Assembly (NCBI GenBank): GCA_026989135.1
Contig: JALSJZ010000106.1
Span: 1 to 59,635, forward strand
Direction: 5' to 3'
DNA from: Sedimenticola sp.
GTDB taxonomy: Bacteria > Pseudomonadota > Gammaproteobacteria > Chromatiales > Chromatiaceae
Length of the DNA stretch: 59,635 nt
Below the pieces are notes generated by a model. That model searched no databases. It was not told the origin of the DNA and saw only the letters and a program-made list of their open reading frames with translations. Within the stretch, counting starts at the first letter, position 1. Each line of letters opens with the position of its first letter. This document shows, one piece after another, positions 13,921 to 33,324 of this stretch. The position numbers and the translations under genes were made by a program.

Positions 13921-15168
13921 ATGGAAAAATTGAACCAGGTTTTATTGCATCCCAAAAATAGGGTGGGTGCAGATCTTGAAGCGTGGCTTGCGCATGTGGG
14001 TGGAGAGGGGTTGCAGGTTGCGCTGCAAGACCCTTCCCGATTGGTTGCACTGGTAAAGGAGGCAGAACTGCCCGGCCTGGGCGGGAGCGGCTTCCCGGTG
14101 CATATCAAGTGGGCGGCGGTTGCGCAGCAGAGAGAGGCAAAAGAGAAATACCTGATCTGCAATGGCAACGAGGATGAACCCGGCACCTTTAAGGATCGTA
14201 TGCTGCTGGAAGAGACACCGCACCAGATCATTGAAGGGGCAACGATCACCGCGCTGGCGACCGGGATCAACCGAATTGTTTTTTACATCAACCCCGATCT
14301 GGACGGCGGCATTGACGCGATGCGTACCGCAGTGGCGCAGTGGCAAGCGTCTGGGCTTGTGGACAAGGCGGCCGTGGCGTTGAAAAGAGCGCTGAAGTAT
14401 CAGGTGGTGGAAAGTTCCGGTCACTATATTGGCGGTGAAGAGACGGCGGCCATTGAGTCGGTGGAGGGAAAATTCCCCTTCCCGCGTGGCAAGCCGCCGT
14501 ATCCTGCCCAGCATGGTGTGCATGGCTATCCCACGCTGGTCAACAATATGGAGACCATGGCCAATATCCCCCATCTGGTGCGCAATGGTGCGCAGTGGTT
14601 TAAGGATCAGGGCATTGGCAAAGCGGGTGGCACCAAGATCTTCTGTCTGAGTGGTGATGTGCTGAAACCCGGCTCCTACGAGCTGCCAATGGGTACGCCG
14701 CTGAAGGATCTGATCTACACCTACGGTGGCGGTGTGTTGCTGGGGAAAAAACTGAAGGCGGTGTTTACCGGCGGCCCATCGAATACCATTCTGACTCCGA
14801 AGGATCTGGATGTGCCGCTGGATTTTGACTCGGTGCGGGCGCGCCGCTCCAGCCTGGGAACCGGAGCGATGATCGTGATCTCTGAAGGAACCGGCATCGT
14901 CAAGCGGGTTTCAGAGTATGTCGATTTCTTTGCCCACTCCTCCTGTGGCCAGTGTCCGCCCTGCAAGACGGGTACTTATTATATATCTCAGCTGCTGGGC
15001 AAGATTGATACCGGCCAGGGGCGGCAGGCCGATCTCGATTCGCTGGAAAATCTATGCGAGATACTGCCGGGCAGTGGACGCTGCCATCTGCTGGATGGTG
15101 CAGTGAAGGTGCTGGAGAGTTCACTCTACCATTTCAAGGATGAGTATGAGCAGGCGCTCAGACGGTAG
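13921..15168 (+). CDS. Stand-alone NuoF/HoxF-like NADH-binding flavoprotein subunit
   Basis: 415-residue homologue of the NADH-oxidising subunit of complex I. The NAD(H) loop is GLGGSGFPVHIKW (about 52-64), the FMN loop is CNGNEDEPGTFKDR (about 80-93), and GGEETAAIESVEGKFPFPR is typical of NuoF. The N3-type [4Fe-4S] site is complete: Cys342, Cys345, Cys348 (CGQCPPC) and Cys388 (GSGRC). The usual Arg-Gly-Gly-Ala-Gly loop is altered to Leu-Gly-Gly-Ser-Gly. There is no NuoE, NuoG or hydrogenase nearby. It heads the kor/rnf cluster, so it may pass electrons between NADH and that system (inference). Confidence 0.85.
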   Translation: MEKLNQVLLHPKNRVGADLEAWLAHVGGEGLQVALQDPSRLVALVKEAELPGLGGSGFPVHIKWAAVAQQREAKEKYLICNGNEDEPGTFKDRMLLEETPHQIIEGATITALATGINRIVFYINPDLDGGIDAMRTAVAQWQASGLVDKAAVALKRALKYQVVESSGHYIGGEETAAIESVEGKFPFPRGKPPYPAQHGVHGYPTLVNNMETMANIPHLVRNGAQWFKDQGIGKAGGTKIFCLSGDVLKPGSYELPMGTPLKDLIYTYGGGVLLGKKLKAVFTGGPSNTILTPKDLDVPLDFDSVRARRSSLGTGAMIVISEGTGIVKRVSEYVDFFAHSSCGQCPPCKTGTYYISQLLGKIDTGQGRQADLDSLENLCEILPGSGRCHLLDGAVKVLESSLYHFKDEYEQALRR

Positions 15169-15454: not shown

Positions 15455-17359
15455 ATGACTAAACAAGCAACAGCGCAAAAAAGCAATGTCGCTGAGATTT
15501 CCGCAGGAAAACCAAAGCGTATTGAAGAGCATATTATTGAGGTTGTCAGTGACTCTGGCGAAGGTGCCCAGAAGTGTGGGCAGACCTTTGGCACAGTTAG
15601 TGGCAAGATGGGGAACGGCGTCTGGACAGTGGAGATCATCCCTGCTGAGATTCAGCCGCCCGCCCGTTCGAAGGAGGGTGCCAGTGGTGTTCGCATCCGG
15701 CTGGGTTCCAAATATGTCACCAACATGGGTGACCAGGCTGATCTGGTTATCGCCTTCAATGAACAGGTGCTCTACAACCGCATCGTAAACGGTGCCTTTC
15801 GCAAGGGTACAGTGGTTCTGCTGGAGAGCAAGTGGGCAGAGGATCCGCAGCCAGCCATCCGCGAGCAGTATGCTGCCGCGCTGGCCGACTTCAATGAGCG
15901 CGGCCTGATTATTCATGAGCTGCCGCTTGAGAAAGAGTGCCTCAAGATTGTTAAAAATGCCCGTCAGGGCAAAAACATGTTTGTGCTTGGCATGCTCTGC
16001 CGTATCTACAGTCGTGACACCCAGCGCGCTCTGGATGAGATTGCAAAGGTCTTCGCGCGAAAGGGCGAGAAGGTGATCAAGCCAAACCACGAGCTGTTTA
16101 AGGCTGGCTACCAGTATGCTGCTGAGAATCTTGATTATCATTACGAGGTTATCCCAGAGCGTGAGGGGCTGCAGAAGCCTACCGTGGTAACCAACGGTAA
16201 TACCGCCGTTGGGCTGGGTATACTGGCTTCCGGTATGGATATGCTGGCGATGTATCCGATCACTCCGGCAACCTCTGTCTCTCACTATGTGTCAGAGGTG
16301 TTTCACCATACCGGCGGGTTTATGCATCAGGCTGAGGATGAGATCGCGGCTGTTGCCTATGCCGTAGGCTCCTCCTTTGCAGGCAGAACCGCTGTTACGG
16401 TCACCTCTGGCCCCGGTATGGCGCTTAAGACCGAGATTCTGGGTCTGGCGGTGATGTGTGAGGTACCGCTGGTAGTTGTCAATGTGCAGCGTGGCGGCCC
16501 GGCAACCGGCCAGCCGACCAAGATCGAGCAGGGTGATCTGCTCTCAGCGATCTACAGCATGCCTGGCGACGCACCCAAAATCGTCATGGCGCCAGCCACC
16601 ATCTCCGAGTGCTTTCACTTTGTGATCACGGCACGCAAGCTGGCTGAAGCCTTCCGCACCCCGGTCATTATCCTGACCGATGCCAACCTGGCGACCGCTG
16701 TACAACCCTATGATCGTCCAGAGCCTCAGGCCGAATGGCTCTCTGCGCCGATTGACCAGTCCGAGTGGGACAAAAATATTCCACCCTATGACTGGGATGA
16801 TGAGACCGGCCTGTCACCACGGCCAATCCCAGGTCAGCCCGGTGGTGAGTACGTCCTGACCGGCCTGGCTCACACCAAGCGCAGTAAGGTGGCCTACGAC
16901 TCCATGTCAAACCAGATCGGTTGTAACATGCGCAGCCGCAAGATGTCCGCCTTTGCCGCCACCTTGCAGCGCCCCGAGATCTATGGTGACAAAGAGGGCG
17001 ACATCCTGGTTCTCTCCTGGGGTTCTACCATGGGCGCCGTACGGGAGGCCGTGGATCGCATGCGAGCAGATGGCCACAAAATATCCAACGTACACCTGCG
17101 ATTCCTGCATCCGTTTGAGAAGGATCTGAAAGAGATCTTCTCCAAATTTAAGAAGGTGATGACTGTCGAGCTGAACTACAGCGACGACCCTGATATGCCG
17201 CTGATCACCGATGCCACTCGCCGCTATGCGCAGCTGGCCAATATCCTGCGTCATCATACGCTGCTGGATATTGACTGCTGGTCTATCGTGCAGGCAGCCC
17301 CGCTGCAGCCCGGTGTGATTTGTGAGGCCGTTCTTGGTCGTCTGAAGAAACTGAATTAG
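15455..17359 (+). CDS. korA: 2-oxoglutarate:acceptor oxidoreductase, fused gamma-alpha subunit
   Basis: 634-residue subunit of the 2-oxoacid:ferredoxin oxidoreductase family, which interconverts 2-oxoglutarate with succinyl-CoA plus CO2 using low-potential electrons. An N-terminal gamma domain (about 28-215, GAQKCGQTFGTVSGKMGNGV) is fused to the alpha domain. The alpha domain has YPITPATSVSHYVSEVF (about 268), QAEDEIAAVAYAVGSSFAG, VTSGPGMALKTEILGLA and QRGGPATGQPTKIEQGDL, all typical of KorA. Assignment to 2-oxoglutarate rests on KorA-like motifs plus the sucCD neighbours; another 2-oxoacid is possible. Ribosome-binding site GGGAAGG is 4 nt before the ATG. korB follows after 12 bp. Confidence 0.9.
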   Translation: MTKQATAQKSNVAEISAGKPKRIEEHIIEVVSDSGEGAQKCGQTFGTVSGKMGNGVWTVEIIPAEIQPPARSKEGASGVRIRLGSKYVTNMGDQADLVIAFNEQVLYNRIVNGAFRKGTVVLLESKWAEDPQPAIREQYAAALADFNERGLIIHELPLEKECLKIVKNARQGKNMFVLGMLCRIYSRDTQRALDEIAKVFARKGEKVIKPNHELFKAGYQYAAENLDYHYEVIPEREGLQKPTVVTNGNTAVGLGILASGMDMLAMYPITPATSVSHYVSEVFHHTGGFMHQAEDEIAAVAYAVGSSFAGRTAVTVTSGPGMALKTEILGLAVMCEVPLVVVNVQRGGPATGQPTKIEQGDLLSAIYSMPGDAPKIVMAPATISECFHFVITARKLAEAFRTPVIILTDANLATAVQPYDRPEPQAEWLSAPIDQSEWDKNIPPYDWDDETGLSPRPIPGQPGGEYVLTGLAHTKRSKVAYDSMSNQIGCNMRSRKMSAFAATLQRPEIYGDKEGDILVLSWGSTMGAVREAVDRMRADGHKISNVHLRFLHPFEKDLKEIFSKFKKVMTVELNYSDDPDMPLITDATRRYAQLANILRHHTLLDIDCWSIVQAAPLQPGVICEAVLGRLKKLN

Positions 17360-17371: not shown

Positions 17372-18325
17372 ATGTTCGGACTTAAAGCAGATTGGTCACT
17401 TGACGTTCAAGACCGCTATTTTACCCTTGAAGATTATGAAGGTGCGCAGCCACGCTGGTGCACCGGTTGTGGCGACCATGGTGTATTGACCGCCGTGCAA
17501 AAGGTCTGCCGGGAAGCACAGCTTGCACCCGAGAAGATTGTCAATGTATCAGGCATCGGCTGTTCAAGCCGCCTGCCGCACTATATGAAGACCTACGGCT
17601 TTCACGGCCTGCATGGTCGGGCGCTGCCTTTTGCCTCTGGCATCAAGGCGCGCCGCCCGGATCTGGATGTCTGGGTCTCCACCGGTGATGGTGACTGCTT
17701 CTCCATTGGCGGCTGCCACTGGATACATGGCATACGTTACAATGTTGATATGGTTGTTCTGGTATTTGATAACGCCATTTATGGCCTGACCAAAAATCAG
17801 ACCTCACCCACCAGCCCGCAGGAGCTCAAGACCAGCACCCATCCAACCGGCTCTTTCCTGCCAGCAATGAATCCGCTGACCATCACCCTGGGTATCACTA
17901 ATGTATCCTTCGTGGCGCAGGTGGTGGATTGGAATCCACTGCTGGTCTATGAAACCATCAAGATGGCGCATGCTCACCGCGGCACTAGCTTTGTGCGCAT
18001 CATCCAGCGTTGCCCGGTCTTCGTAGAGGATGTGCATAAAGAGATGGTGAATGACCCATCTCAGATTCTGCTGCTGAAGCATGAGAACGGCATCCCGACC
18101 AACGAAGCTGTTGAGCGCATCTATCCAAACCAGATCGAGCATGACCCGACTGACTGGAGTGCGGCGATGAATATTGCTCGTGATGAGAGCAGGGTTCCCT
18201 GTGGGCTGCTTTACCACGACCCGAATGCCCCGGTCTATGACGACTGGAGCAACGTAGGCATGGGCATGTCTGACGAAGAGAAGATCGCCGGTGTTAACAA
18301 GGCGCTTGACTCCTTCTCGATCTAA
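17372..18325 (+). CDS. korB: 2-oxoglutarate:acceptor oxidoreductase, beta subunit (thiamine-binding)
   Basis: 317-residue catalytic partner of KorA that binds thiamine diphosphate and an Fe-S cluster. Cys30 and Cys33 (CTGCGDHG) and Cys64 (GIGCSSRLPHY) are cluster ligands of the family; a later Cys in IIQRCPVF is the likely fourth. The thiamine/Mg motif is STGDGDCFSIGGCHWIH, followed by FDNAIYGLTKNQTSPTSP, with all key residues intact. The active catalysis of the cluster therefore sits in KorAB. It starts 12 bp after korA with an AGGAG site, and the 827-residue gene follows after 24 bp. Confidence 0.92.
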   Translation: MFGLKADWSLDVQDRYFTLEDYEGAQPRWCTGCGDHGVLTAVQKVCREAQLAPEKIVNVSGIGCSSRLPHYMKTYGFHGLHGRALPFASGIKARRPDLDVWVSTGDGDCFSIGGCHWIHGIRYNVDMVVLVFDNAIYGLTKNQTSPTSPQELKTSTHPTGSFLPAMNPLTITLGITNVSFVAQVVDWNPLLVYETIKMAHAHRGTSFVRIIQRCPVFVEDVHKEMVNDPSQILLLKHENGIPTNEAVERIYPNQIEHDPTDWSAAMNIARDESRVPCGLLYHDPNAPVYDDWSNVGMGMSDEEKIAGVNKALDSFSI

Positions 18326-18349: not shown

Positions 18350-20833
18350 ATGACAGCACAAGCTAGTAAAAAGCAGCCGCTGCAGGAATCAGAGCGAAGC
18401 GCGGGAGGAGTACCTTTCCTCCCCGCTTCTGCTGATGCCTCTGACGAGCTGATGAACACTCTGCGCCACTTTCATCTGGGTGAGCCTGGCGCTAAATCCA
18501 CACTTGGCAAAGTGAGCAGCGAGTTCCTGCCCGTCTCACTCAACAGCTTTCGGGATGTCACGAAGGTCAGGTACGACTACCCGTTATTCCTCTATCCAGC
18601 GCAGAGTGCCGGTGATGTTTTGGCAAAGCCGCTCTCCCGCTTCCTTGGCGATGTAGTCGAGGGTTTTGCACCCGCTGCCGAAAGTGCGCGGATTCTCAAA
18701 GACAATCTTGCCTGGATTGAGCGCGAGCTGTGCAGCAAATTGCAAGGGCAGGAGGCGCCGGTAGATGCGGCTCCTCTGGTTGCTGATGCAGCACAGGCGT
18801 TGCAGAAGCAGCTTGACCTGAAGGGCGAGCACGTTGAACGTCTGCAGGCCGATCTGGATCAGCTGGTCGCTGCTGTTGAAGAGGGTAGTCAGTTTCTTGG
18901 CTACGGGCGTCTGGCCGCGGTCTATCTGCTGCTGCATGTGGCGCGCTGTAAATCGCTGCCGCGCCGTGCGGCATTCCATCAGGAGATCGCCCAACTGGCT
19001 GCCAGCCTGAAAGCGTTGTTGGCCGTGGAAAAAGGCAAGACCGCTGCAGCAAGGAAATCAACCGCTATCAAGCAGAGCATTGGTGTCTCAAGCGGCTATT
19101 TCAACACCGCATCCATGTCAAAGATGATGAACCACTCACAGGGTTCTGCATCAATGGCGGTTGCGCGGCGCAAGCGTGTTGAAGCTGCGCTGGGAGTTCT
19201 TGAGTCCTATCAGAGCGATCCTGTGCTGGTGCGTGCCGTGCATGCCAACAAGCTGGGTGAGACGCTATTGTCAGATGCGGCTGATTTTGCATCTGTCAGC
19301 GATGTGGATCCCTGCTCAGTAGCTGCGGCCACCTTTGATGCAGAGGCAGAGAAACTGGCTAAGGTTTTTGCTGCGGTACGCATTGCCAAGCTGGAGAGCA
19401 GAGATGCCTACAGGCCTGCAATTCATGATGCCTGGTTCAAAAATTTTGGGTGGGAAGGCTTCTCCCCGGAAGAGCTGCTGCTGGTACCGACCGTTGTTGC
19501 CATTGATAATGCCAACGATGTCGCAACCAGCGGTCTCTGTTCCTTTTCGCAGCTGCTGAGTTCCGGTCGTCCGGTACAGATATTGGTGCGGGTTCAGGCG
19601 CACAGCAATCCGGCTGCGGCGGAGGGTGAAGACCCATTTGCGCGTTACCGTGTGGAGCTGGGTTACCTGGGTATCAGCCACCGCCAGGCTGTGGTTGCCC
19701 AGTCCTCTGCGGCACGTTATGAGCATCTGCTGGAACAGTACGGCTTGGCGCTTGATGCCACCTGCACTGGTCTGCATTTGGTCAGCACGGGTGTTAAGTC
19801 ATCCGAAGGCGGCTCGCTTGATCCGTGGTTTGTGGCCAGTGCCGCACTGGAAGGGCGCGCCCATCCAGCCTTTCTGATCAATCCCGATGCAGGCGATGAT
19901 TTTGCTTCGCGCATGGATTTCAGCGGCAATCCGCAGGCCGAGCATGATTGGCCAAACCACAACTACAGCTATATTGACGCAGACGGCAACACAGTAAATT
20001 CAGAGCTCTCTTTCACCTTTGCCGATTATGCGTTGCTGATTCCAAGTCTGAAGGCGCACTTTGGCGTGGTCACAGAAGGGCATAGTGCGGATGATCTTGT
20101 GCCGGTTGCGCAGTGGTTGACGCTGCCAGAAGAGCAGGCCAACAGCAGCGTACCCTTCATCTGGGCGGTGGATGGCAACGATGTGATGCAGCGTCTGGTG
20201 ATCTCCCGTGCACTGGTCATGGCCTGTCGTGATCGCCGCAACTACTGGCGCACCCTTCAGGAGCTGGCCGGTGTGCGCAGCCGTTATATAGAGCTGGCGG
20301 TGCAGCGTGCCAGTGAAGAGGCGCAAGCCGCTGCCGCTGCCGAGATTGAGGCCATGCACAGCGAGCAGGCTGAAGAACTGGAGCGTGTCCGCAGTGAAAC
20401 AGCGGGCGAGGCACTGGGTCGATTGGCTAATGCGCTGGTGGGAATGGATCTCTCAGCGGCACTGCCTGCCGCCGGTGCGCCGGCTGTGGCAACCGCAGCG
20501 TCTGCTGCATCGGCAGAAGAGGCGGAACCAGAGGCAGCAGCTGAGCCTGAAGCGGCACCCGAACCTGAAGAGGAAGAGGTGAGCTTCGATGATCCGTGGA
20601 TCGAAACGATTCTATGCACCACCTGCAATGACTGTATCAATCTCAACCCGCTGATGTTCGTCTACGACGATAACAAGCAGGCCTATATTGCAGATGCAAC
20701 GGCTGGAACCTTTGCCCAACTGGTAGAGTCGGCTGAGTTCTGTCCTGCCAACTGCATCCATCCAGGCAAACCCCTGAACCCGGATGAGCCTGATCTGGAT
20801 GATCTGATCAAGCGGGCAGAAGCGTACAACTAG
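18350..20833 (+). CDS. PFOR-related redox protein with C-terminal ferredoxin domain
   Basis: 827-residue protein I do not recognise as a named family. Residues ~30-330 are mostly helical with a possible coiled coil (about 150-185). Residues ~375-650 resemble a degenerate PFOR thiamine domain: LVPTVVAIDNANDV, then SGRPVQILVRV, then ISHRQAVVAQSSAARYEHLL, parallel to the 1541-residue protein encoded at 21780. Both share the block WRTLQELAG (here ~632) followed by a helical tail. An Ala/Glu/Pro-rich linker (about 705-745) leads to a ferredoxin module with Cys756, Cys759, Cys762, Cys798 and Cys802 (CTTCNDC, EFCPANCIHPGKP). The thiamine motif is missing. Likely an electron-transfer or scaffold subunit of the Kor system (inference). 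Confidence 0.7.
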   Translation: MTAQASKKQPLQESERSAGGVPFLPASADASDELMNTLRHFHLGEPGAKSTLGKVSSEFLPVSLNSFRDVTKVRYDYPLFLYPAQSAGDVLAKPLSRFLGDVVEGFAPAAESARILKDNLAWIERELCSKLQGQEAPVDAAPLVADAAQALQKQLDLKGEHVERLQADLDQLVAAVEEGSQFLGYGRLAAVYLLLHVARCKSLPRRAAFHQEIAQLAASLKALLAVEKGKTAAARKSTAIKQSIGVSSGYFNTASMSKMMNHSQGSASMAVARRKRVEAALGVLESYQSDPVLVRAVHANKLGETLLSDAADFASVSDVDPCSVAAATFDAEAEKLAKVFAAVRIAKLESRDAYRPAIHDAWFKNFGWEGFSPEELLLVPTVVAIDNANDVATSGLCSFSQLLSSGRPVQILVRVQAHSNPAAAEGEDPFARYRVELGYLGISHRQAVVAQSSAARYEHLLEQYGLALDATCTGLHLVSTGVKSSEGGSLDPWFVASAALEGRAHPAFLINPDAGDDFASRMDFSGNPQAEHDWPNHNYSYIDADGNTVNSELSFTFADYALLIPSLKAHFGVVTEGHSADDLVPVAQWLTLPEEQANSSVPFIWAVDGNDVMQRLVISRALVMACRDRRNYWRTLQELAGVRSRYIELAVQRASEEAQAAAAAEIEAMHSEQAEELERVRSETAGEALGRLANALVGMDLSAALPAAGAPAVATAASAASAEEAEPEAAAEPEAAPEPEEEEVSFDDPWIETILCTTCNDCINLNPLMFVYDDNKQAYIADATAGTFAQLVESAEFCPANCIHPGKPLNPDEPDLDDLIKRAEAYN

Positions 20834-20929: not shown

Positions 20930-21787
20930 ATGTCATTTGATCTCGGAACACTATTTTCTGCACCGGGCATCATGCTCGGCCTGGGACTGTTCTTTGGTAT
21001 TGTCCTTGCCGTGGCCTACCGATACCTGAAGGTAGAGGAAGATCCACGCATCGACGATACCGAAGCGTTGCTCCCGGGTACCAACTGCGGTGCCTGCGGT
21101 GAACCCGGCTGTCGCGCCTTCTCTGAGAAATTGGTCTCAGGCGAGGTGGAGCCAAGCCTGTGCACCGTTGCAAGTCCGGATGTACTGGAGAGCATTGCCG
21201 AATATCTCGGAGTGGATGCGGGTGAGCAGAACAAGCGGGTAGCGCGGCTGCGCTGCGCCGGTGGTGTGGCAGAAGCGCATCAGATCGCGGAGTACAAAGG
21301 TTTTGATGGCTGCCGGGCTGCGGATATGGTTGCAGGTGGTGGCAAGGGCTGCTCCTGGGGCTGCCTGGGACTTGCCGACTGCGAGATCTCCTGCACCTTC
21401 GGCGCAATCATTATGAATGACAATGGCCTGCCAAAGGTCGAGGTCGATCTCTGTACCGCCTGTGGCGACTGCGTTGATGCCTGTCCACGCGATCTGTTTG
21501 AGATTTTGCCGCTTAACGAAAAACTCTACGTTCAATGCAACAACCCCTTAGCTGGTGATGATGCAGTGGCGCTGTGTACCGTAGCTTGTGATGCCTGTGG
21601 CCGCTGTGCCCTGGATGCCGAGCCGGGCGTAGTGGTCATGGAGAACAATCTGCCCATCGTGCATTTTGATCTCGGTACTGCAAAACCAAAAGCCACCTAC
21701 CGCTGCCCGACCGGGGCAATAAAGTGGCTGGAGGGTAACCAGTTCGAAGAACATAGCCAAGAGAAGAGCCAGAAACGACATGCCTAG
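20930..21787 (+). CDS. rnfB: RnfB homologue (Fe-S subunit with membrane anchor)
   Basis: 285-residue polyferredoxin. One N-terminal membrane helix (about 10-30) is followed by the RnfB-type four-Fe domain, LPGTNCGACGEPGC (Cys53, 56, 61, then a fourth Cys near 78). A longer RnfB-like region with ferredoxin-type sites follows: CSWGCLGLADCEISC and CTACGDCVDACPRD. It resembles the long clostridial-type RnfB, but the last two ferredoxin motifs are degraded. CDACGRCALDAEPG lacks its fourth Cys, and only one Cys remains in the final motif. The rnfCDGEA operon downstream lacks rnfB, so this is the only candidate for that role in the window. Its stop overlaps the start of the 1541-residue gene by 8 bp. 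Confidence 0.82.
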   Translation: MSFDLGTLFSAPGIMLGLGLFFGIVLAVAYRYLKVEEDPRIDDTEALLPGTNCGACGEPGCRAFSEKLVSGEVEPSLCTVASPDVLESIAEYLGVDAGEQNKRVARLRCAGGVAEAHQIAEYKGFDGCRAADMVAGGGKGCSWGCLGLADCEISCTFGAIIMNDNGLPKVEVDLCTACGDCVDACPRDLFEILPLNEKLYVQCNNPLAGDDAVALCTVACDACGRCALDAEPGVVVMENNLPIVHFDLGTAKPKATYRCPTGAIKWLEGNQFEEHSQEKSQKRHA

Positions 21788-24700
21788 TAATAATACCATG
21801 GCCATCCGCCTGTACCGGCGCCTATTTGTTTCTTCCAAGAGAGCCGTAAAGGAAGATGGGATAGAGACCGTTCTGGATGGGAATACAGCCGTTGCCGTAA
21901 CCGAAGCCGCTATCTCTGGAGCCGCTGCCCTGGGCAGTAGTTTTCCAGGGGTCGGCGCTAACCAAGCGTGGCGATCCGAGCAAGAGCAGCGTGACAGTAA
22001 CGCTTTTGGCGGGCAGATCAGCTCCTGCGAGACAGATGGGCCGCGTGGCGCACTCGCCGCTGCGACTGGGCTTGCCCTGTCGGGTGGGCGGGCTACAGTC
22101 TTTATCTCCGGGCAGGATGCTGCGGCGGTTCAGGATCAGCTGCGAATCGCTGCCAACCGTCATCTTCCGCTGGTGATGCATCTTGAAAACAGCGCGCTCT
22201 CAGGCCAGGGTTCGACCTTGGGCACGGGGCATGAGGCAATACACCTGTGTGCCGATTCCGGTCTCTTCACACTGGTGGCCTCCACCGTGCAAGAGGCGGT
22301 GGACTTCACCCTGATTGCCCGCCGCGTTGCTGAGCGTGCATTGGTGCCGGGCGTGGTGGCGATGGATGGGGAACAGACCGCCCGTTCGCTGCAAAATGTC
22401 AGATTGGCCTCGCAAGAGCTGGCAGAGCGGTTCATTGGCGCATCCGATGCCACTATCCCGACTCCCACCGATGCGCAAAAAATGCTGTTTGGCGACCACC
22501 GTCGCCAGGTGCCGAACTGGCATGACCTGGACAACCCGGTGATGCATGGCGCGCTACAGGGTGCCGAGGTCTATGCCTTGGGCGCGATTGGACAGAGTGC
22601 CTTTTTCGAACAGCATCTGCCTGCCATCCTGCAACAGGCGATTGCCGATTTTGCAGCGCAGACAGGCAGGGACTACTCCCCTGTAACCGATTTTGAGTTG
22701 GGCACGGATAGCGCAGAGTGGCCTCGCTACTCAGCGGATGACGCAAAACTGGTATTGGTGGCGCAGGGTTCGGCCATTGAGACAGCAAAGGCCGTTGCCG
22801 CACATGTTCTGTCAGAGACCGGAGAGCGGGTTGGCGTGGTTGGCATCCATGCGGTGCGCCCGTTTCCATCTGCTGAGATTGTCAGCCGGCTGCGTGGCCG
22901 TGCCAATGTTGTGGTTCTGGAACGTGCTGAAACCCCGCTGGCGGGTGATGCCCCACTGACCCGCGAGATACGGGCCGCCTTTGACCAGGCGCAAGAGAAC
23001 AGCCGCTATGGCGAACAGACCCATCCTGGTGTCCCTGCAATGGACGAAAAGGCCCGCCCTCGACTGCGCACCGTAGTCTATGGTGTTGGTGGTCAGCCGG
23101 TACGCAGTGCAGATCTGATTGCGCTGTGCCGGGATCTGGAGCAACTCAATGGCTCACGCCACTATCTGGGTGTCGATCTTGCGCAGAGATCGACCAGCTA
23201 CCCCAAACGCCAGGTATTGCTGGACAACCTGAACCGTGCCTATCCCGAGATTGCCAAACAGGGTCTGCGCTCAACCATAGCAGCACCTGATCTGCGCCCT
23301 GAAAATGCACTGACCATTGCGGTGCACCGCATGACGGGTCAGGGTGGAGAGGGGCTGGTGGATGAGGCGGGAAGCTATCTGCACCAACTGGTTGGCGGTG
23401 AGCTTCGCAGCCGGACAGGCCTGAGCTGGGAGCGCTGGGGTGCCTGCTGTACCGATCTGGTAACACATGCCGGGAGCGGGCTGCTGGATAGCGGCGACGA
23501 TATCACGGTTGACTTCTCTATTCTGGCGGCCAAACGCCCCAATCCACTGTTCAAGCCCCATACACAGCTGCGCGATGGTGGTGCTTTGATGGTATTGTCA
23601 GCAGGCACTGACAAGGCGGTATGGCAAGGCCTCTCAGCGGATACCCGCGCAGCAGTCAAACAGAAAGGTTTAACCCTCTATGCGGTCATGCCGCGCAGTA
23701 AAGATGCCAAGGTTCCAGGCATTCCGGCTGCCGATCTGACCCGCGAACATCTGCTGGGTGCCCTCTTCAAGGCGCTGCTGGATGCCGAGGCAGTCGATGT
23801 CAAGGCGCGCCGACTTATCCCTGCCCGCGAAGAGGCGTTGGATAACCTCCCCAGTGGGACGAGCAGCGCGCTTCTGGCCGCTTTTCAGACCGGCATGGCG
23901 GCTGTCAGAAAGATTGATTATGCGGCACTGAGTGAGCCTGCTCGCACAGTGGCCAAAACCGATTCAACCCCTATTGCAGTGCGCCAGCTCAAGAGCAAAA
24001 ACGAGCGCCACGACAGCCTGCCCAGATTCTGGGATCAGGTCGGCATCCTCTACCGTAATGGTGAGGCTGACACACAGACCGCCGACCCCTATATCACAGC
24101 AGGCACCCTGCCGCCGTTGACCTCAACCTTCCGTGACCTGAGCGACACCCGCCGCATGTTGCCTGCATTCGACCCAACCGAGTGTACCGGTTGTGGCAAA
24201 TGCTGGAGCAGCTGCCCGGAAGGTGCTATCGGCGCGGTTGCCGTGACCCCGGGCGCACTGATTGATGCCGGTATCAAGATTGCCGGTGGCGATGCGCTAC
24301 GCCCATCCGGTTCAAAAATCGCCGGGCGGATCTGTAGCCAGGTTCGCACCGGAAAGGCCAAAAGTGGTTCGGCAAGTGCGTTGCTGGAAGAGGGCTACGC
24401 CTGGCTGTCAGAGAAGATGCCGCTGCCAGAGGATCGTAAGCAGGCGATGGATGAGGCCTTCGAGGCGGTCAATGCCCGGATTGGCGCACTCCCGGTTGCG
24501 GTCACCGCCCCTCTTTTCAACGACCTGGAAGCCGAGAAAAAGGATAGCGGTGCGCTGCTGGCGCTGGCGATCAACCCGAATGCCTGCAAGAACTGCGGTA
24601 TCTGCGTCACCGTGTGTGAGCCAGGCTCCATGCAGGCAGAGAAGCAGGATGAGACGCATCTGCAACAGGCGCGTGAGATTTGGGATATTTGGGGCAACAC

Positions 24701-26405
24701 CCCCGACACCCCTTCAGAGATCATAGAAAAGGTCAGTGACAACCCGGAGGTTGGCGCAATGGCTGCGGTCATGCTGTCACGCTACTGTGCCATGGCGGTG
24801 GCGGGTGGTGATGGCGCTGAGTCCGGGTCGGGCGAGAAGATCGCCGTCCGCATGGCGCTGGCAGCGACGGAATATCATCAGCAGCCGCTGCTGCACAGTT
24901 TTACCAAGGAGATTGCAGAGACCCTGCAACAGCTGAAGGATCAGATCCGTGAAGAGATCGCTTCCGCGCTGCCGGTGGATAATCTGGATGCCCTGACAGC
25001 GGGTCTGAATCAGCTCAAGAGCGGAATCGTCGATGTCGGTGAGCTGACCAGCCACATCGAGACCTCGGTTGAAGAGGGCAATGTCAACGCGGTGCGGCTG
25101 CGCCGACTGGTCGATCTGGCCAAGGCGTTGGGTGAGCTGCACTGGCGGCTTGCAGAGGGTGAGACCGGACTGGGGCGTTCCCGCTTTGGCCTGGCGATTG
25201 CGCCGGGCACGGTTGCGGCCTGGGCGGGTGTCTTCCCCAACAACCCATTCCAGGTGCCGGTTGCAATAGACACCACTGGCGATACCGCACAGATGGCCGC
25301 CGGTCTGCTGCAGGGGCAGTTGCGCGAGGCAACAGAGGCACAACGCCTGCTGCGAGCTGCAAAACTGGAGCTGGAGCAGCCTACCGGCATCCAACAGCTG
25401 CGTGACGAGCTGGATGGGCTGGGCTGGCAGGATCTGAATGATCAGGAGCGTGCGCTCTGCCCGCCGCTGTTACTGGTTGGCAATGATGAGGCGCTGGCCG
25501 GGCGTGGTTTTTCACAGGTGGCCTGGTTGTTGAAATCCGGGCTGCCGGTAAAGATCCTGCTGCTTGCCGATCTGGGTCTTGGCCTCGACAGCGGCGATCT
25601 GAGGGACGCTGCGGTGGCCTCGTCGCGTGATCCCAAGGCGGATCTGGGGCTGATGGCGATGGCACAGCGAGTGGCCTATGTGGCTCAGAGCTCTATCGCG
25701 GCAGCGGATCATCTCCGTCAAAGCGTACGGGAAGCCCTTAAATACAAGGGGCCGGCGCTGATTCATCTGCATGTTCCCAGCCCAGGGCGGCACGGTTTTT
25801 CCGTAAGCCAGACCCTGCAGCAGGCAGAGCTTGCGCTGAATAGCCGTGCCTTTCCACTGTTTAGATATAATCCTGCTGCGGAAGGTGTATTTGGCTCCCG
25901 TATCACGCTGGAAGGCAATCCGGAGCTGAATGCCCCCTGGGTCGCCAACGAGGACGGTACACCGTTTACCCCCGTGCAGTGGGCATTGAGTGAAAGCCGT
26001 TTTGCGGGTCGCTTTGTACCGATCACCAGCGAAGACCCGGCACCCACCGCACTGGATCTCTGGCTGGGGCTGGAGGCTGATGCACGTCAGGGGAAAACGC
26101 CATTTATTCAGCGGCCGGAAGAGAGTGGCGAGACACAGCGCATCCGTGTCGATGCCGAGCTGGCCGCTGAGATTGCCGAACGTGCCCAGAGCTGGCGCAC
26201 CTTGCAGGAGCTGGCGGGTATCGAGACCCCCTTTGCCGCAGCTATCGTTCAAGCGACAGAGGAGCGTCTGGCAAAAGAGCATGAGGCAGCACTGGCAGCA
26301 TTGAAGAGCGAGTATCAGCAACAGAGCAGTGCGCAGCAGAGTGGCGCGCAGGCAGAGACATCCGCCCATGTGCGTGAGCAATTGCTGAAGCTGGCAGGTT
26401 ATTAA
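21780..26405 (+). CDS. Giant PFOR-homologous redox protein, thiamine site lost
   Basis: 1541 residues. The order follows pyruvate:ferredoxin oxidoreductase. Domains I-II lie at ~25-420 (VVVLERAETPLAGDAPLTRE). A gamma-like domain III is at ~500-690 (VHRMTGQGGEGL). A two-cluster ferredoxin domain has Cys802, 805, 808, 812 and Cys936, 939, 942, 946. A domain VI-like part is at ~1225-1460 (DLGLMAMAQRVAYVAQSS, then RAFPLFRYNP). A helical tail follows. The GDGWAYDIGYGG-type thiamine motif is replaced by VGNDEALAGRGFSQV, and the cysteines for the proximal cluster are absent. It is therefore probably not an oxidoreductase for pyruvate but an electron conduit or scaffold for KorAB. Translation is coupled to the rnfB homologue by an 8-bp overlap. 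Confidence 0.8.
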   Translation: MPSNNTMAIRLYRRLFVSSKRAVKEDGIETVLDGNTAVAVTEAAISGAAALGSSFPGVGANQAWRSEQEQRDSNAFGGQISSCETDGPRGALAAATGLALSGGRATVFISGQDAAAVQDQLRIAANRHLPLVMHLENSALSGQGSTLGTGHEAIHLCADSGLFTLVASTVQEAVDFTLIARRVAERALVPGVVAMDGEQTARSLQNVRLASQELAERFIGASDATIPTPTDAQKMLFGDHRRQVPNWHDLDNPVMHGALQGAEVYALGAIGQSAFFEQHLPAILQQAIADFAAQTGRDYSPVTDFELGTDSAEWPRYSADDAKLVLVAQGSAIETAKAVAAHVLSETGERVGVVGIHAVRPFPSAEIVSRLRGRANVVVLERAETPLAGDAPLTREIRAAFDQAQENSRYGEQTHPGVPAMDEKARPRLRTVVYGVGGQPVRSADLIALCRDLEQLNGSRHYLGVDLAQRSTSYPKRQVLLDNLNRAYPEIAKQGLRSTIAAPDLRPENALTIAVHRMTGQGGEGLVDEAGSYLHQLVGGELRSRTGLSWERWGACCTDLVTHAGSGLLDSGDDITVDFSILAAKRPNPLFKPHTQLRDGGALMVLSAGTDKAVWQGLSADTRAAVKQKGLTLYAVMPRSKDAKVPGIPAADLTREHLLGALFKALLDAEAVDVKARRLIPAREEALDNLPSGTSSALLAAFQTGMAAVRKIDYAALSEPARTVAKTDSTPIAVRQLKSKNERHDSLPRFWDQVGILYRNGEADTQTADPYITAGTLPPLTSTFRDLSDTRRMLPAFDPTECTGCGKCWSSCPEGAIGAVAVTPGALIDAGIKIAGGDALRPSGSKIAGRICSQVRTGKAKSGSASALLEEGYAWLSEKMPLPEDRKQAMDEAFEAVNARIGALPVAVTAPLFNDLEAEKKDSGALLALAINPNACKNCGICVTVCEPGSMQAEKQDETHLQQAREIWDIWGNTPDTPSEIIEKVSDNPEVGAMAAVMLSRYCAMAVAGGDGAESGSGEKIAVRMALAATEYHQQPLLHSFTKEIAETLQQLKDQIREEIASALPVDNLDALTAGLNQLKSGIVDVGELTSHIETSVEEGNVNAVRLRRLVDLAKALGELHWRLAEGETGLGRSRFGLAIAPGTVAAWAGVFPNNPFQVPVAIDTTGDTAQMAAGLLQGQLREATEAQRLLRAAKLELEQPTGIQQLRDELDGLGWQDLNDQERALCPPLLLVGNDEALAGRGFSQVAWLLKSGLPVKILLLADLGLGLDSGDLRDAAVASSRDPKADLGLMAMAQRVAYVAQSSIAAADHLRQSVREALKYKGPALIHLHVPSPGRHGFSVSQTLQQAELALNSRAFPLFRYNPAAEGVFGSRITLEGNPELNAPWVANEDGTPFTPVQWALSESRFAGRFVPITSEDPAPTALDLWLGLEADARQGKTPFIQRPEESGETQRIRVDAELAAEIAERAQSWRTLQELAGIETPFAAAIVQATEERLAKEHEAALAALKSEYQQQSSAQQSGAQAETSAHVREQLLKLAGY

Positions 26406-26492: not shown

Positions 26493-27653
26493 ATGAACCT
26501 ACATGAATATCAAGCGAAGGGTCTCTTCGCAGAGTATGGAATCCCCATCCCTGCGGGACAGATGGTCGATTCAGTAAATGACGCTGAATCTGCGGCCAAT
26601 GCCATCGGCGGTGAGGCCTGGGTGGTCAAGGCGCAGATACATGCCGGTGGGCGAGGCAAAGCCGGTGGTGTGAAGCTGGTCAAAAGCATCGATGAGCTGA
26701 AGCTGGAGACGGATCGCATGTTGGGAAGCGCTCTGGCCACCTTCCAGACCCATGGGCGTGAGCTGCCGGTCAGCCAGGTGCTGATTGAGCAGACACTGGA
26801 TATCGACCGAGAGCTCTACCTGAGTGCTGTGGTTGACCGTGCAACCGAGCGGGTTGTCTTCATGGCCTCTGCATCGGGCGGTATGGATATTGAAGAGGTT
26901 GCCGAGGCAACGCCGGAGAAGATCGTCACCGTCTGTGCCGATCCGGCCGCAGGCCTGCAACCCTACCAGTGTCGCCAGGCGGCCTTTCGTATGGGGCTGG
27001 AGGGGAAGCAGGTTGGTGCGCTGACCCGAATCATGATGGGGCTTTACCGACTGTTTGATGACAAAGATATGAGCCTGGTCGAGATCAACCCGCTGATCGT
27101 GACTGGCGATGGTGATCTGCTGGCACTGGATGGCAAGATCAACATTGATGACAACGCCCTCTATCGCCACCCGGATCTGCTGGAGATGCGTGACGAGAGC
27201 CAAGAAGATGCGCAGGAGTGTGAGGCGCAGAAGCATGACCTCAACTACATCACCCTGGACGGCAATATCGGCTGCATGGTCAACGGTGCAGGTCTGGCGA
27301 TGGCCACCATGGATCTGATCAAACTGCACGGTGGTGATCCGGCCAACTTTCTGGATGTAGGCGGTGGCACCACTGCTGAGCGCGTAGCCGCTGCTTTCAA
27401 ACTGATCCTGAGCGACGCCAAGGTGGAGGCCATTCTGGTGAACATCTTCGGTGGCATCGTTCGCTGTGATCTGATTGCAGAAGGGATCATCGCCGCAGTG
27501 AAAGATGTGGGTATCTCAATCCCGGTCGTTGTGCGGCTGGAGGGTACCAATGCGCCACAGGGGCGGGAGCTGCTGGATCAGAGTGGTCTGAACCTGATCT
27601 CTGCCGAAGGGTTGACCGATGCGGCCAAGAAGGTCGTCGCATCCATCGCCTGA
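26493..27653 (+). CDS. sucC: Succinyl-CoA synthetase, beta subunit
   Basis: ATP-grasp subunit of succinyl-CoA synthetase (386 residues). It begins [18 protein letters not shown] and has [20 protein letters not shown] (nucleotide grasp). The CoA-ligase half has [25 protein letters not shown] and [15 protein letters not shown]. With KorAB upstream, the pair can convert succinate to 2-oxoglutarate in the reductive direction, or the reverse. It follows the 1541-residue gene after 87 bp. A lipoprotein gene separates it from sucD, which is unusual. Confidence 0.96.
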
Positions 27654-28093: not shown

Positions 28094-28969
28094 ATGAGTA
28101 TTTTAATCAATAAAGAGACCAAGGTTGTCGTCCAGGGCTACACGGGAAAGCAGGGTACATTCCATGCTGAACAGGCCATTGCGTACGGCACCAACATCAT
28201 TGGTGGCGTGACCCCCGGCAAGGGCGGTCAATCCCATCTGGATCGGCCGGTGTTCAACACTGTGGCCGATGCGGTCGATGCAACCGGCGCGGATGCCAGC
28301 ATGATCTATGTGCCACCCGCCTTTGCAGCCGATGCCATTCTGGAAGCGGCCGATGCCGGTATCAAGGTGATTGTCTGCATCACCGAGGGTATCCCGGTTG
28401 TGGATATGCTGAAGGTGAAGGCTGCGCTGCGTGGTCACAACAAGCCCTATCTGATTGGCCCCAACTGCCCTGGCGTGATCACGCCAGGCGAGTGCAAGAT
28501 CGGCATCATGCCGGGTGCCATCCATCAGCCGGGCAAGATTGGTGTTGTGTCACGCTCCGGTACCTTGACTTATGAGGCAGTACGCCAGACCACCCTGGCC
28601 GGTCTGGGGCAGTCCACCTGCGTCGGCATCGGTGGCGATCCCATCCACGGCATGAACTTTATCGACTGCCTGAAGCTGTTCCAGGAAGACCCACAGACCG
28701 AAGGGATCATCATGGTGGGTGAGATCGGCGGCAGCAAAGAGGAGGAGGCCGCAGAGTACATCAAGGCCAATGTCAGCAAGCCGGTTGTCTCCTATATTGC
28801 GGGTCTGACAGCGCCTCCAGGGCGTCGTATGGGACATGCGGGAGCCATCATCTCGGGCGGCAAGGGTGCCGCCACCGACAAGATTGCCGCACTGGAAGCG
28901 GCCGGCGTTACGGTCTCCCGCTCACCGGCTGACATGGGCGAGCATATGGCTCAACTGATGAATGGCTAA
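28094..28969 (+). CDS. sucD: Succinyl-CoA synthetase, alpha subunit
   Basis: 291-residue CoA-binding subunit that carries the phosphohistidine. The N-terminus [18 protein letters not shown] and the CoA loop [10 protein letters not shown] are typical. The catalytic His248 lies in [14 protein letters not shown]. The family motif [12 protein letters not shown] is also present. It works with SucC encoded at 26493. It starts 46 bp after the intervening lipoprotein gene, and rnfC follows closely. Confidence 0.96.
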
Positions 28970-29008
28970 TCGCCCTCCTGTAGTGTGGCAACTGATAACC
29001 GTTTTACT

Positions 29009-30349
29009 ATGAATCTATTTCGGCGATTAAGTAACAGCTTTGATCATGGGGTATTCCCCCATCATCACAAAGAGCAGACGGAGCAACTCGCAATCCAGCG
29101 CCTCCCTTTTGGCAAGCGCTTTGTGATCCCGCTTGGTCAGCATGTAGGCGCACCAGCCAAACCGATAGTGCAGGCAGGCGATGCAGTAAAGCGTGGCCAG
29201 ATGATTGCCGAGCCGGGTGGCTTTGTCTCCGTGGCACTGCATAGCCCCGTTACCGGGCGCGTGACCGGCGTCGATCCAGAGCGCTATGCCGACGGTACCT
29301 TTCAAGAGGCGATCGTGATTGAGGCGGATCAATATGATGCGCAGCAGATGGAGGTTCACCCCATCGACTGGGAATCGCTCTCAATCGAGGCGTTCATCAG
29401 CGAGGTGCAGAAGGCCGGCATCGTGGGGTTGGGCGGCGCTGCATTCCCGTGTCATGTGAAGTACGCCATCCCGGATGGCAACAAGATCCGTCATCTGCTG
29501 ATCAATGGCGCTGAGTGTGAACCCTATCTGACCAATGACCACCGCCAGATGGTGGAGCAGACAGAGGCGCTGCTCTATGGCGCGGAGATTGTGCGTCAGA
29601 AGCTGGGTGCAGAAGAGATTGTCATCGGTGTCGAGAAGAACAAGCCCGATGCGATCAAGGCATTGCAGGATGCGATCAAGCCTGGGCAGCCCGTCCGCGT
29701 GATGCCACTGGAGGTAAAATACCCCCAGGGCGCGGAGAAGATGCTGATCAAATCCGTGTTCGGTGTTGAGGTGCCAGCTGGCAAGCTGCCGCGTGATGTC
29801 GAGGTGGCAGTCAATAACGTCGGCACCATCATCGCCATTGCCGAATATTTTCAGACCGGCAAGCCGTTGATCGAGCGTGTGGTTACGGTTTCGGGGCCAG
29901 GTGTCTCCTACCCTGCCAACCTGATCGTGCCACTCGGAACCTCGATACGTGAAGTGCTGGATTATGCCGGCGGACTCACAGATGAGACACGCCAGGTGGT
30001 TCTGGGCGGCCCGATGATGGGTGATTCGATTGCCGATCTCGATGCGCCAATGCTCAAAGGCAGCGCAGGCGTACTGGCGCTGACAGAAAACGAGACCGGG
30101 CGACCACCGGAGTACAACTGCATCCGCTGTGGCCGTTGCGTTGAAGCCTGTCCCTACTTCCTGAATCCGGCTCGTTTTGCACGTCTGGCAAAGGCGCGCA
30201 TGTTTGAAGAGATGGCTGAAACCTATAAGGTTATGGATTGTGTAGAGTGTGGCTGTTGCACCTACTCATGCCCTTCAGGCATTCCGATTGTACAGCATAT
30301 TCGTACAGCTAAAGATCATCTGCGTTCCATGAAGGGGAAGGTTCAGTGA
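29009..30349 (+). CDS. rnfC: Rnf complex subunit C (NADH/FMN, Fe-S)
   Basis: Peripheral NADH-side subunit of the Rnf ion-pumping NAD:ferredoxin oxidoreductase. It has an RnfC barrel-sandwich start (HQ-type HHHKEQTE, PLGQHVGAPAKPIVQAGD). It also has the nucleotide loop GLGGAAFPCHVKY, NGAECEPYLTNDHR, and two ferredoxin sites (CIRCGRCVEACPYF and CVECGCCTYSCPSG). Length is about 446 residues, the short clostridial type, without the long Ala/Lys-rich tail of the E. coli RsxC. I chose ATG 29009 (MNLFRRLSNSF); an in-frame GTG at 28985 is possible. The stop overlaps the rnfD start. Confidence 0.93.
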   Translation: MNLFRRLSNSFDHGVFPHHHKEQTEQLAIQRLPFGKRFVIPLGQHVGAPAKPIVQAGDAVKRGQMIAEPGGFVSVALHSPVTGRVTGVDPERYADGTFQEAIVIEADQYDAQQMEVHPIDWESLSIEAFISEVQKAGIVGLGGAAFPCHVKYAIPDGNKIRHLLINGAECEPYLTNDHRQMVEQTEALLYGAEIVRQKLGAEEIVIGVEKNKPDAIKALQDAIKPGQPVRVMPLEVKYPQGAEKMLIKSVFGVEVPAGKLPRDVEVAVNNVGTIIAIAEYFQTGKPLIERVVTVSGPGVSYPANLIVPLGTSIREVLDYAGGLTDETRQVVLGGPMMGDSIADLDAPMLKGSAGVLALTENETGRPPEYNCIRCGRCVEACPYFLNPARFARLAKARMFEEMAETYKVMDCVECGCCTYSCPSGIPIVQHIRTAKDHLRSMKGKVQ

Positions 30350-31356
30350 CACAAAAGGATCCAAAACTTCTTATACAGCCCGGGCCACAGCTGCGGCAGC
30401 AGATGACCACCCCTGTGGTTATGCGTGATGTCTGGTATGCGCTAACCCCTGCCACCCTGGCCGGCATCTGGTTCTTTGGTTTGGGTGCATTTCTGGTGCT
30501 GCTGGCATGTATTGCTGGAGCGGTTCTGGTCGAGTGGTATTTTGCCCCTGAAGAGAAACGAGGCTATTTCCTTGGTGATGGCACAGCCATCCTTACGGGT
30601 TGGTTGCTGGGGCTTACGCTGCCGCCTGCGCTGCCTTTGTGGATGGCCTTTCTCGGTGGTGTTGTTGCGGTTGGTATAGGAAAGACCATCTGGGGAGGAA
30701 TGGGTGCCAACATATTCAACCCTGCGCTGGTTGGCCGTGCCTTTCTGCTGGCCACCTTTCCGATTGCGATGACCACCTGGACAGCCCCTGGGGACTTTTT
30801 CACCATTCCTTCATCCCTTTTTGCACTGCCTCTGATGACCGGTGTTGTTGATACAGTTACGCAAGCCTCACCGCTGGGCATGATGAAGTTTGAGCATGTC
30901 GATACCCCATTCATCGACCTGCTGTTCGGCAATACATCAGGTTCCTTGGGCGAGACCAGCGGACTGTTGCTGATTCTTGGCGGCCTCTATCTCTGGTGGC
31001 GACGCGATCTTGATTGGCGTATTCCAGTGGGCATCCTGGGTACTGCAATAATCTTCTCGTTGATTCTCTTTATGGTCGATGCGGATAAGTATCCAGGGCC
31101 AATCTTTACCGTATTCTCAGGCGGCATGCTGCTCGGTGCCATCTTTATGGCCACTGACCCGGTCACCTCGCCACTGACACAGAAGGGAACCTGGATCTTT
31201 GCCATTGGTATTGGACTCCTGGTTGTGCTCATCCGCGTCTTTGGTGGCTTTCCAGAGGGGATGATGTATGCCATTCTGCTGATGAATGCGGCAACACCTT
31301 TGATTGACATGTACACCCAGCCACGGGTATTTGGACGGGAGCTGGATCAAAAATGA
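30346..31356 (+). CDS. rnfD: Rnf complex subunit D (membrane flavoprotein)
   Basis: 336-residue polytopic membrane subunit, NqrB-like, with about eight to nine hydrophobic segments. The covalent FMN region contains FMATDPVTSPLTQKG, and the conserved loop GGMGANIFNPALVGRAFLL is present. Translation starts at GTG 30346 within the rnfC stop (GTGA), which implies coupling; the 3' end overlaps rnfG by 4 bp. Confidence 0.94.
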   Translation: MTQKDPKLLIQPGPQLRQQMTTPVVMRDVWYALTPATLAGIWFFGLGAFLVLLACIAGAVLVEWYFAPEEKRGYFLGDGTAILTGWLLGLTLPPALPLWMAFLGGVVAVGIGKTIWGGMGANIFNPALVGRAFLLATFPIAMTTWTAPGDFFTIPSSLFALPLMTGVVDTVTQASPLGMMKFEHVDTPFIDLLFGNTSGSLGETSGLLLILGGLYLWWRRDLDWRIPVGILGTAIIFSLILFMVDADKYPGPIFTVFSGGMLLGAIFMATDPVTSPLTQKGTWIFAIGIGLLVVLIRVFGGFPEGMMYAILLMNAATPLIDMYTQPRVFGRELDQK

Positions 31357-32051
31357 GTGAAGATAAAGTAGAGCAGGCTGCTGTAGCAGATGAGCCCAGT
31401 CCGGCTCGCCTGATTGGTACGCTTGCGATTGCCGGGCTGGTTTCAGGGGTCATTATTATTGCGATCTATCTGGCTACCTTTGAGACCATCAAAGAGAACA
31501 AGGCGCGTGAGTTGCGTGAAGCTGTCTTCCGGGTGCTTCCCAATGTAAGCAAGATGCAGAAGCTGTTGCTCAAAGAGGGCAAGCTGGAGGTCTCTTACAA
31601 AGAGGAGAAAGGTGAAGAGCCCATTTATGCCGGTTATGACGACAACAACACATTCATGGGGTACGCCATTCCAAGTGATGGGCCAGGGTTTGCAGATACC
31701 ATAAGTGTGCTTTATGGCTATCGCCCATCGGATCGCAAGGTGATCGGTATGTGGATACTTGCCAGCCGCGAAACCCCCGGTCTGGGTGATAAAATCTATA
31801 AAGATGCGGCATTTGTTGCCAACTTTGATGATCTGGCTATTGAACCTCCTATTGTCGCTACGAAGAGGGGGAAAAGTAAGCCTAATGAGATAGATGCGAT
31901 CACGGGTGCCACGATCTCCTCTGTCGCAGTGGCAAGAATTATCAACAAGGGTAACGACTATTGGGTTTCCAGGCTGCCAGAACCAGGCGCTGAACCTGCT
32001 TATGTAGAGGTGGAAACCCCACCTGAAGCTGAAGATGCTCAAGCGCAGTAG
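31353..32051 (+). CDS. rnfG: Rnf complex subunit G (covalent FMN)
   Basis: 232-residue subunit with one N-terminal membrane helix (about 22-44) and a periplasmic FMN-binding domain. The FMN attachment motif is TGATISS (acceptor Thr in D-A-I-T-G-A-T). ASRETPGLGDKI is the other family hallmark. ATG overlaps the rnfD stop (ATGA). The C-terminus is rich in Glu/Pro and is probably disordered. FMN attachment would need an ApbE flavin transferase, which is not in this window. Confidence 0.94.
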   Translation: MSEDKVEQAAVADEPSPARLIGTLAIAGLVSGVIIIAIYLATFETIKENKARELREAVFRVLPNVSKMQKLLLKEGKLEVSYKEEKGEEPIYAGYDDNNTFMGYAIPSDGPGFADTISVLYGYRPSDRKVIGMWILASRETPGLGDKIYKDAAFVANFDDLAIEPPIVATKRGKSKPNEIDAITGATISSVAVARIINKGNDYWVSRLPEPGAEPAYVEVETPPEAEDAQAQ

Positions 32052-32096
32052 CTGAGACATCCTGAAAAATGACCGACTAAATTAGAAATACTAATC

Positions 32097-32741: not shown

Positions 32742-32742
32742 A

Positions 32743-33324
32743 ATGGGTGATCTAGGTTGGATTTTTATCAGCACACTGCTGATCAATAACTTTGTACTGG
32801 CTTATTTCCTTGGACTCTGCCCTTTCCTGGGGGTATCCAATAAGCTTGAAGTCTCGTTTCGACTCGGCCTGGCAACCATCTTTGTGATGGTGGTTACCGC
32901 GCTATGTGCCTGGTTTCTTAATACCTATGTTTTGATCCATGCCCCCTATCTGCGCCTGATCAGTTTTATTGTTGTGATAGCCAGTGTGGTGCAGTTGATA
33001 GAGATGGCCATCAAAAAAACGAGTCCAGCGCTCTTTCGTGCGCTGGGTATCTTCCTGCCACTGATCACTACCAACTGTGCAATCCTCGGCCTTGCCATCT
33101 TTGCAACCAACAAAGGCTATGGGCTCTGGGAAGGGTTGGTCTATGCCTTGGGTGCAGGTATGGGTTTCACGCTGGCTATTGTACTGATGGCGGGTATGCG
33201 ACAAGAGGTTGAAAAGGTCAATGCCATGCCAAAGCTTATTAGAGGTTTTGCGTTTAACCTTATAATTTCAGGCATCTTGTCCATGGCCTTCATGGGCTTT
33301 GCCGGGCTTTTTAGTTCAAGCTGA
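32743..33324 (+). CDS. rnfA: Rnf complex subunit A
   Basis: 193-residue integral membrane subunit, NqrE-like and paralogous to RnfE. Cysteine motifs LGLCPFLGVSNK and TTNCAILGLAIF match those of RnfE and complete the intramembrane iron site. Six hydrophobic segments are seen. It is the last recognisable structural subunit of the rnfCDGEA set; a small Cys-rich membrane protein gene begins 4 bp later. rnfB is absent here. Confidence 0.94.
   Translation: MGDLGWIFISTLLINNFVLAYFLGLCPFLGVSNKLEVSFRLGLATIFVMVVTALCAWFLNTYVLIHAPYLRLISFIVVIASVVQLIEMAIKKTSPALFRALGIFLPLITTNCAILGLAIFATNKGYGLWEGLVYALGAGMGFTLAIVLMAGMRQEVEKVNAMPKLIRGFAFNLIISGILSMAFMGFAGLFSSS

Follow-up and report, generated by a model that had tools for sequence, protein, structure and literature searches.

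How a two-subunit 2-oxoglutarate synthase is supplied with low-potential electrons is a question that concerns aerobic and microaerophilic sulfur oxidisers, and it is raised by an operon of Sedimenticola sp. in which an 827-residue protein (T827) of uncertain class lies between korB and rnfB. The window analysed here is a stretch of 59,635 nucleotides (contig JALSJZ010000106.1 of assembly GCA_026989135.1), and its operon runs in the order NuoF-KorA-KorB-T827-RnfB-N1541-(SucCD)-RnfCDGEA, where N1541 is a protein of 1541 residues. Its genes are:

13921..15168, + strand: NuoF-like NADH/FMN flavoprotein (Complex1_51K; conserved position; present in part of the operons)
15455..17359, + strand: KorA, 2-oxoacid:acceptor oxidoreductase alpha, a gamma-alpha fusion (TIGR03710 above cut-off; POR, POR_N, PFOR_II)
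17372..18325, + strand: KorB, beta subunit with TPP-binding domain (TPP_enzyme_C, PFO_beta_C; TIGR02177 below cut-off)
18350..20833, + strand: T827, read here as a dead PFOR C-terminal half with a tethered ferredoxin (profile, model and column counts, dN/dS)
20930..21787, + strand: RnfB-like polyferredoxin (TIGR01944 above cut-off; FeS, Fer4)
21780..26405, + strand: N1541, read here as a dead full-length PFOR (hhalign to intact PFOR 100%, E 1e-176; column counts)
26493..27653, + strand: SucC, succinyl-CoA synthetase beta (ORF; named by sequence recognition; conserved position in relatives)
28094..28969, + strand: SucD, succinyl-CoA synthetase alpha (ORF; named by sequence recognition; conserved position in relatives)
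28985..33324, + strand: rnfC, rnfD, rnfG, rnfE and rnfA (ORFs; named by sequence recognition; conserved block in relatives)

No NuoE was seen beside the NuoF-like gene upstream of korAB, which could be a direct entry for NADH. Between sucC and sucD, this genus and one neighbour carry a small gene (27619-28047) for about 120-140 residues, whose product has a signal and a cysteine suggestive of a lipoprotein and is without a Pfam match. Upstream of the operon, a DUF1858 protein (8742-9266) adjoins a PilZ protein. Scanning the window with Rfam gave no matches, and promoter and terminator scans gave no clear excess over shuffles.

The reading frame of T827 starts 24 bp past the korB stop. In the closest relatives it aligns over residues 1-827, and no internal stop interrupts it. 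Fer4_13 is the sole Pfam domain recognised in it, above cut-off in the window protein and found in 39 of 39 orthologues, and a sequence search of the PDB with the whole protein and with its profile likewise matched only the ferredoxin part. Over the N-terminal region, Pfam and NCBIfam scans gave nothing above any cut-off; a match to the NCBIfam model IglI_fam (E 0.001 and 19 bits, where the cut-off is 100; 4 of the 39 members) was set aside as chance. The earlier note on this DNA had stated that the first 330 residues match nothing recognisable, which is true of Pfam models and fails at the level of profiles, where these residues are homologous to PFOR in the region of domain V and early domain VI.

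The relative that reveals this homology is an intact PFOR of 1636-1656 residues (about 1650), which sits between rnfB and rnfCDGEA in other genomes of the same family and contains all PFOR domains followed by a linker and a C-terminal Fer4_13 ferredoxin. From about residue 58 onwards, T827 is colinear with residues 763-1646 of this protein (profile-profile probability 100%, E 3.4e-86). Taken in pieces, residues 1-318 match intact PFOR 760-1108 (hhalign 94.6%, E 7e-8; reversed control 0.21), residues 319-660 match 1157-1507 (hhalign E 4.8e-55) and residues 740-827 match at the expected place (E 1.1e-28); reversed controls, made for the two larger pieces, scored 0.2-0.6. The exact register in residues 85-318 is less certain, because their separate match is weaker (36%, E 4e-4). 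The AF2 model (pLDDT 77.6, pTM 0.67) agrees with these alignments, since its residues 76-641 match residues 691-1170 of Moorella thermoacetica PFOR (6cin) with Z 20.1; Desulfovibrio PFOR and the beta subunits of OFORs rank next, well above unrelated ThDP enzymes, which reach Z about 9. T827 agrees with PFOR/NifJ (6cin and D. africanus 1b0p) in both the homology and the fold of domains V-VI, and differs from it by the lack of domains I-III, of TPP and proximal-cluster residues, and by the added tail ferredoxin. Domains I, II and III are missing, as the match begins at intact PFOR 763 and POR_N, PFOR_II and POR are absent in the 39 members. Because the profile pieces and the structural match both fit PFOR, the N-terminal region is no unknown domain: it is a domain V in degraded form, together with the beginning of domain VI. 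By sequence, then, T827 represents the C-terminal half of an Rnf-linked PFOR of about 1650 residues, and its parts can be assigned as follows:

18521..19303, + strand: residues 58-318, remnant of PFOR domain V with both clusters lost, and start of domain VI (hhalign, column counts, fold match from residue 76)
19304..20329, + strand: residues 319-660, degenerate PFOR domain VI without TPP motif (hhalign; GDG and NTGGQ lost)
20441..20584, + strand: residues 698-745, Ala/Glu-rich flexible linker (pLDDT <50; omega 0.10-0.19)
20585..20830, + strand: residues 746-827, predicted single-cluster [4Fe-4S] ferredoxin domain (Fer4_13; 1dax match; omega 0-0.05)

The earlier note had traced T827 and the end of the 1541-residue protein to a common PFOR domain VI, and this descent is upheld by sequence, profile and structure. 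Residues 320-672 align with N1541 1168-1511 (BLASTP, 27% identity, E 3e-24), and the profile of residues 319-660 matches N1541 with E 2.8e-31 (reversed control 0.46). Residues 375-650, proposed there as the PFOR remnant, do not belong to an unrelated fold by profile-profile search or fold comparison; what needed correction was the extent, since nearly the whole protein corresponds to the C-terminal half of PFOR. In a domain VI tree, T827 and N1541 each arise once (100/100), on long stems within the family of Rnf-linked PFORs, and the clade nearest to T827 is that of the intact gammaproteobacterial PFOR (94/92), with which it shares 28% profile identity. The tree thus does not show T827 and N1541 as sister groups, but a joint clade of the two is still compatible with the AU test (p 0.34), and either one or two losses of catalysis would fit.

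The intact Rnf-linked PFOR (L031, L033, L038, L041, L124, L125) has a C-terminal half, linker and ferredoxin colinear with T827 and, unlike T827, has domains I-III, two domain-V clusters, a proximal cluster and a TPP motif, and lies outside a korAB operon. The flexible ferredoxin arm is, on this alignment, no innovation of T827 and was inherited from the intact protein. A second relative, split into two genes of 677 and 558 residues upstream of frd-like, sucCD and korA genes (L119:9478-13206, with the same split in L120-L122), covers in its second gene the same domain V-VI half as T827, but its motifs are intact and it has no tail ferredoxin.

The loss of active-site residues was counted in a joint alignment of 39 T827, 21 N1541 and 6 intact proteins. 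In the T827 orthologues, all the TPP and proximal-cluster residues examined have gone, apart from one Asn that most of them keep. None of the 39 keeps any of the four proximal [4Fe-4S] cysteines, the second of which is replaced by Tyr in all 39 (invariant Tyr185); the Asp of GDG is Ala in 35/39 and the Thr of NTGGQ is Pro in 38/39, with its Asn kept in 34/39. Both domain-V [4Fe-4S] motifs are gapped or replaced throughout (39/39). Judged by these residues, T827 is catalytically dead. It could still be argued that the protein is enzymatic, with a novel chemistry or cofactor in a remodelled pocket, given that its domain VI stays constrained and that invariant residues peculiar to it occur in the pocket region. 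We consider this very improbable, since domain I is absent, and with it the other half of the TPP site, and no alternative catalytic motif was recognised in place of GDG, NTGGQ and the proximal-cluster cysteines. Nor is T827 a decaying PFOR pseudogene, a reading that the lost active-site residues might invite and to which we give practically no weight: the reading frame is intact in dozens of genomes, lost residues were replaced by conserved ones, such as the Tyr in 39/39, and dN/dS, which rules this reading out, is 0.07-0.09 against five close relatives, like its neighbours (0.05-0.11 for KorA and KorB). T827 and N1541 are both under strong purifying selection.

Constraint is not even along the protein. 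The C-terminal domain has both the CxxCxxC...CP motif and the Fer4_13 profile match that mark a single-cluster ferredoxin, and it is a predicted [4Fe-4S] domain of this kind, with Cys756, 759, 762 and 798 as its cysteines and Cys802 likewise invariant; all five are present in 39/39 orthologues. The same CxxCxxC...CPxxC layout is found in D. africanus ferredoxin I (1dax; Fer4_13), which is a free small protein, whereas the ferredoxin of T827 is a tethered domain. Both the separate ferredoxin and the Ala/Glu-rich linker noticed earlier were thus borne out, with residues 698-745 predicted to be disordered. Omega is 0-0.05 in the ferredoxin tail, 0.10-0.19 in the linker and 0.05-0.085 in domain VI. 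PFOR domain VI corresponds to KorB, so one can conceive of a mixed oligomer of KorAB or N1541 in which T827 occupies one position. It could then be mainly a structural or assembly pseudo-beta subunit which stabilises or regulates that oligomer, its ferredoxin being accessory or oxygen-sensing. The dead domain VI is indeed as constrained as the rest, with its own invariant residues, and the fold matches PorB, OorB and the M. marinus OGOR beta subunit. A purely structural role needs neither five invariant cysteines nor a ferredoxin tail that is the most constrained part of the protein, and we regard this role as rather unlikely, while giving it more weight than the other alternatives.

Conserved T827 genes were collected from 45 loci, all but one belonging to Gammaproteobacteria that oxidise sulfur or are related to such bacteria, and carriers include Sedimenticola, Thiodiazotropha, Thiocystis, Thiorhodococcus, Thiosymbion, Beggiatoaceae, Thiomargarita, Thioploca and Achromatium, other Gammaproteobacteria, one Methylophaga-labelled MAG and one Planctomycetota contig. 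At least two are named strain-collection isolates (Thiocystis violacea DSM 208 and Thiorhodococcus mannitoliphagus DSM 18266). KorB is the immediate upstream neighbour in 29 of 40 testable loci, and RnfB the immediate downstream neighbour in 28 of 37. Where the operon has come apart, T827 mostly remains with korAB and N1541 with rnfB: T827 is found downstream of korAB, at most a few genes off, in broken operons (L053, L061, L063, L072, L078, L083), and in separated loci N1541 adjoins rnfB, often with more rnf genes (L127, L128, L131, L133, L136-L138). Several Beggiatoaceae and Chromatiaceae loci have T827 away from korAB (L059, L066, L069, L074, L075, L082), and some of its genes are solitary. 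In one Thiodiazotropha MAG (L080), korA, korB, T827 and N1541 are each interrupted, which may reflect sequencing errors.

A matching KorB (51-67% identity) is encoded in 19/19 T827 genomes tested through their loci, and T827 was never found without its KorAB type in the genomes tested. In the window's family, a KorB of 63-100% identity is accompanied by T827 in 12 of 13 genomes, one of which has only an N-terminal fragment at a contig edge, and five genomes with only a KorB of about 45% have no T827, counts that come from genomes not phylogenetically independent; in the 13th genome korB is at a contig end. Linkage to and co-occurrence with KorAB, as looked for in an accessory subunit of a dimeric OGOR, are thus both found, and the electron delivery to KorB that the earlier note suggested would fit them.

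N1541 raises the possibility of another partner. It keeps both domain-V cluster motifs in 21/21 proteins and has lost GDG, NTGGQ and the catalytic Glu of domain I; the first proximal Cys is Glu in 21/21, CLGCGEK having changed to ESGSGEK, and the proximal cluster and tail ferredoxin are absent. From these residues, N1541 is a second dead PFOR with a cluster set complementary to that of T827, a point absent from the earlier note. Among gammaproteobacterial genomes whose T827 is unlinked or lies on a truncated locus, 16 of the 17 checked have a full or partial N1541, and both proteins come from the Rnf-linked PFOR family, which would suit a reading in which T827 works only with N1541, as a heteromeric ferredoxin-docking part of Rnf serving any low-potential pool, with the korAB neighbourhood incidental. 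We hold this to be improbable, given that a separated T827 mostly stays by korAB and not by rnfB, that its presence follows the type of KorB, and that two Planctomycetota-lineage genomes (L086, L143:269-4000) have KorA-KorB-T827 and no detected N1541. The T827 relative in L143 has 35% identity over its full length and keeps the tail ferredoxin; that in L086 is cut by the contig end.

Taken together, we think it rather probable that T827, a PFOR half without catalysis, was taken on by a two-subunit 2-oxoglutarate:ferredoxin oxidoreductase as its electron-transfer subunit, with a probable relay via N1541 to RnfB. Descent, the lost active-site residues, the complementary clusters, purifying selection, linkage and co-occurrence are firm from sequence, whereas we infer the docking of T827 and the path and direction of the electrons, as follows. 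The dead PFOR body would serve as a docking platform, and the [4Fe-4S] ferredoxin on its flexible linker would be a mobile carrier exchanging electrons with the single cluster of KorB. N1541, genetically tied to RnfB and with two domain-V clusters, would probably be the next station, giving a path RnfC/NAD(H) - RnfB - 1541-aa clusters - 827-aa ferredoxin - KorB - TPP, in which flow would be mostly towards CO2 fixation in the window's lineage (ATP-citrate lyase present, no RuBisCO found). Since the Planctomycetota-lineage genomes encode KorAB and a T827 relative but no N1541 was detected in them, a relay through N1541 is not a requirement and is less certain than the partnership with KorAB. A ferredoxin adjoining an OFOR also need not be its cellular partner.

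By analogy, T827 most likely acts for KorAB in the manner of the PorD/KorD/OorD delta subunits, as a dedicated Fe-S subunit of an OFOR. It differs from them in origin and size and in having a single-cluster ferredoxin, and it lies outside that family, PorD_KorD TIGR02179 giving no match in the 39 members at E 0.01.

The genome of the window encodes an OGDH E1 subunit, ATP-citrate lyase and one intact NifJ-type PFOR, plus a partial POR_N match. Since ATP-citrate lyase is present and RuBisCO was not found in this genome, KorAB is likely the carboxylase of a reductive TCA cycle here; other T827 carriers have RuBisCO. A more tentative idea, to which we give somewhat less than even weight, is that the two dead PFOR descendants, one tied to RnfB and one to KorAB, form a wired path by which the ion-driven Rnf complex is coupled directly to a CO2-fixing 2-oxoglutarate synthase. 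If so, NADH and an ion gradient could power reductive carboxylation without a free ferredoxin pool. For the low-potential electron supply of two-subunit 2-oxoglutarate synthases, the operon offers a concrete and testable answer, in which a retired enzyme is used as a wire.

Dimeric korAB has been noted in these groups (PMC6315080; PMC4853749), and in Endoriftia a 'PFOR-like' gene is reported to fall together with dimeric korAB under sulfide limitation (PMC11636981); this gene may be T827 or N1541. Our literature search found no paper on a dead PFOR or on a link between KOR and Rnf. Annotations of 'PFOR' or 'PFOR-like' in these genomes may count proteins unable to make pyruvate, a warning that extends to expression studies of tubeworm symbionts. 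One genome (L037) has, besides the other two kinds of PFOR, a third of 1710 residues that belongs to the intact-type family (L037:9666-14795); the 20 kb retrieved there contain no rnf genes.
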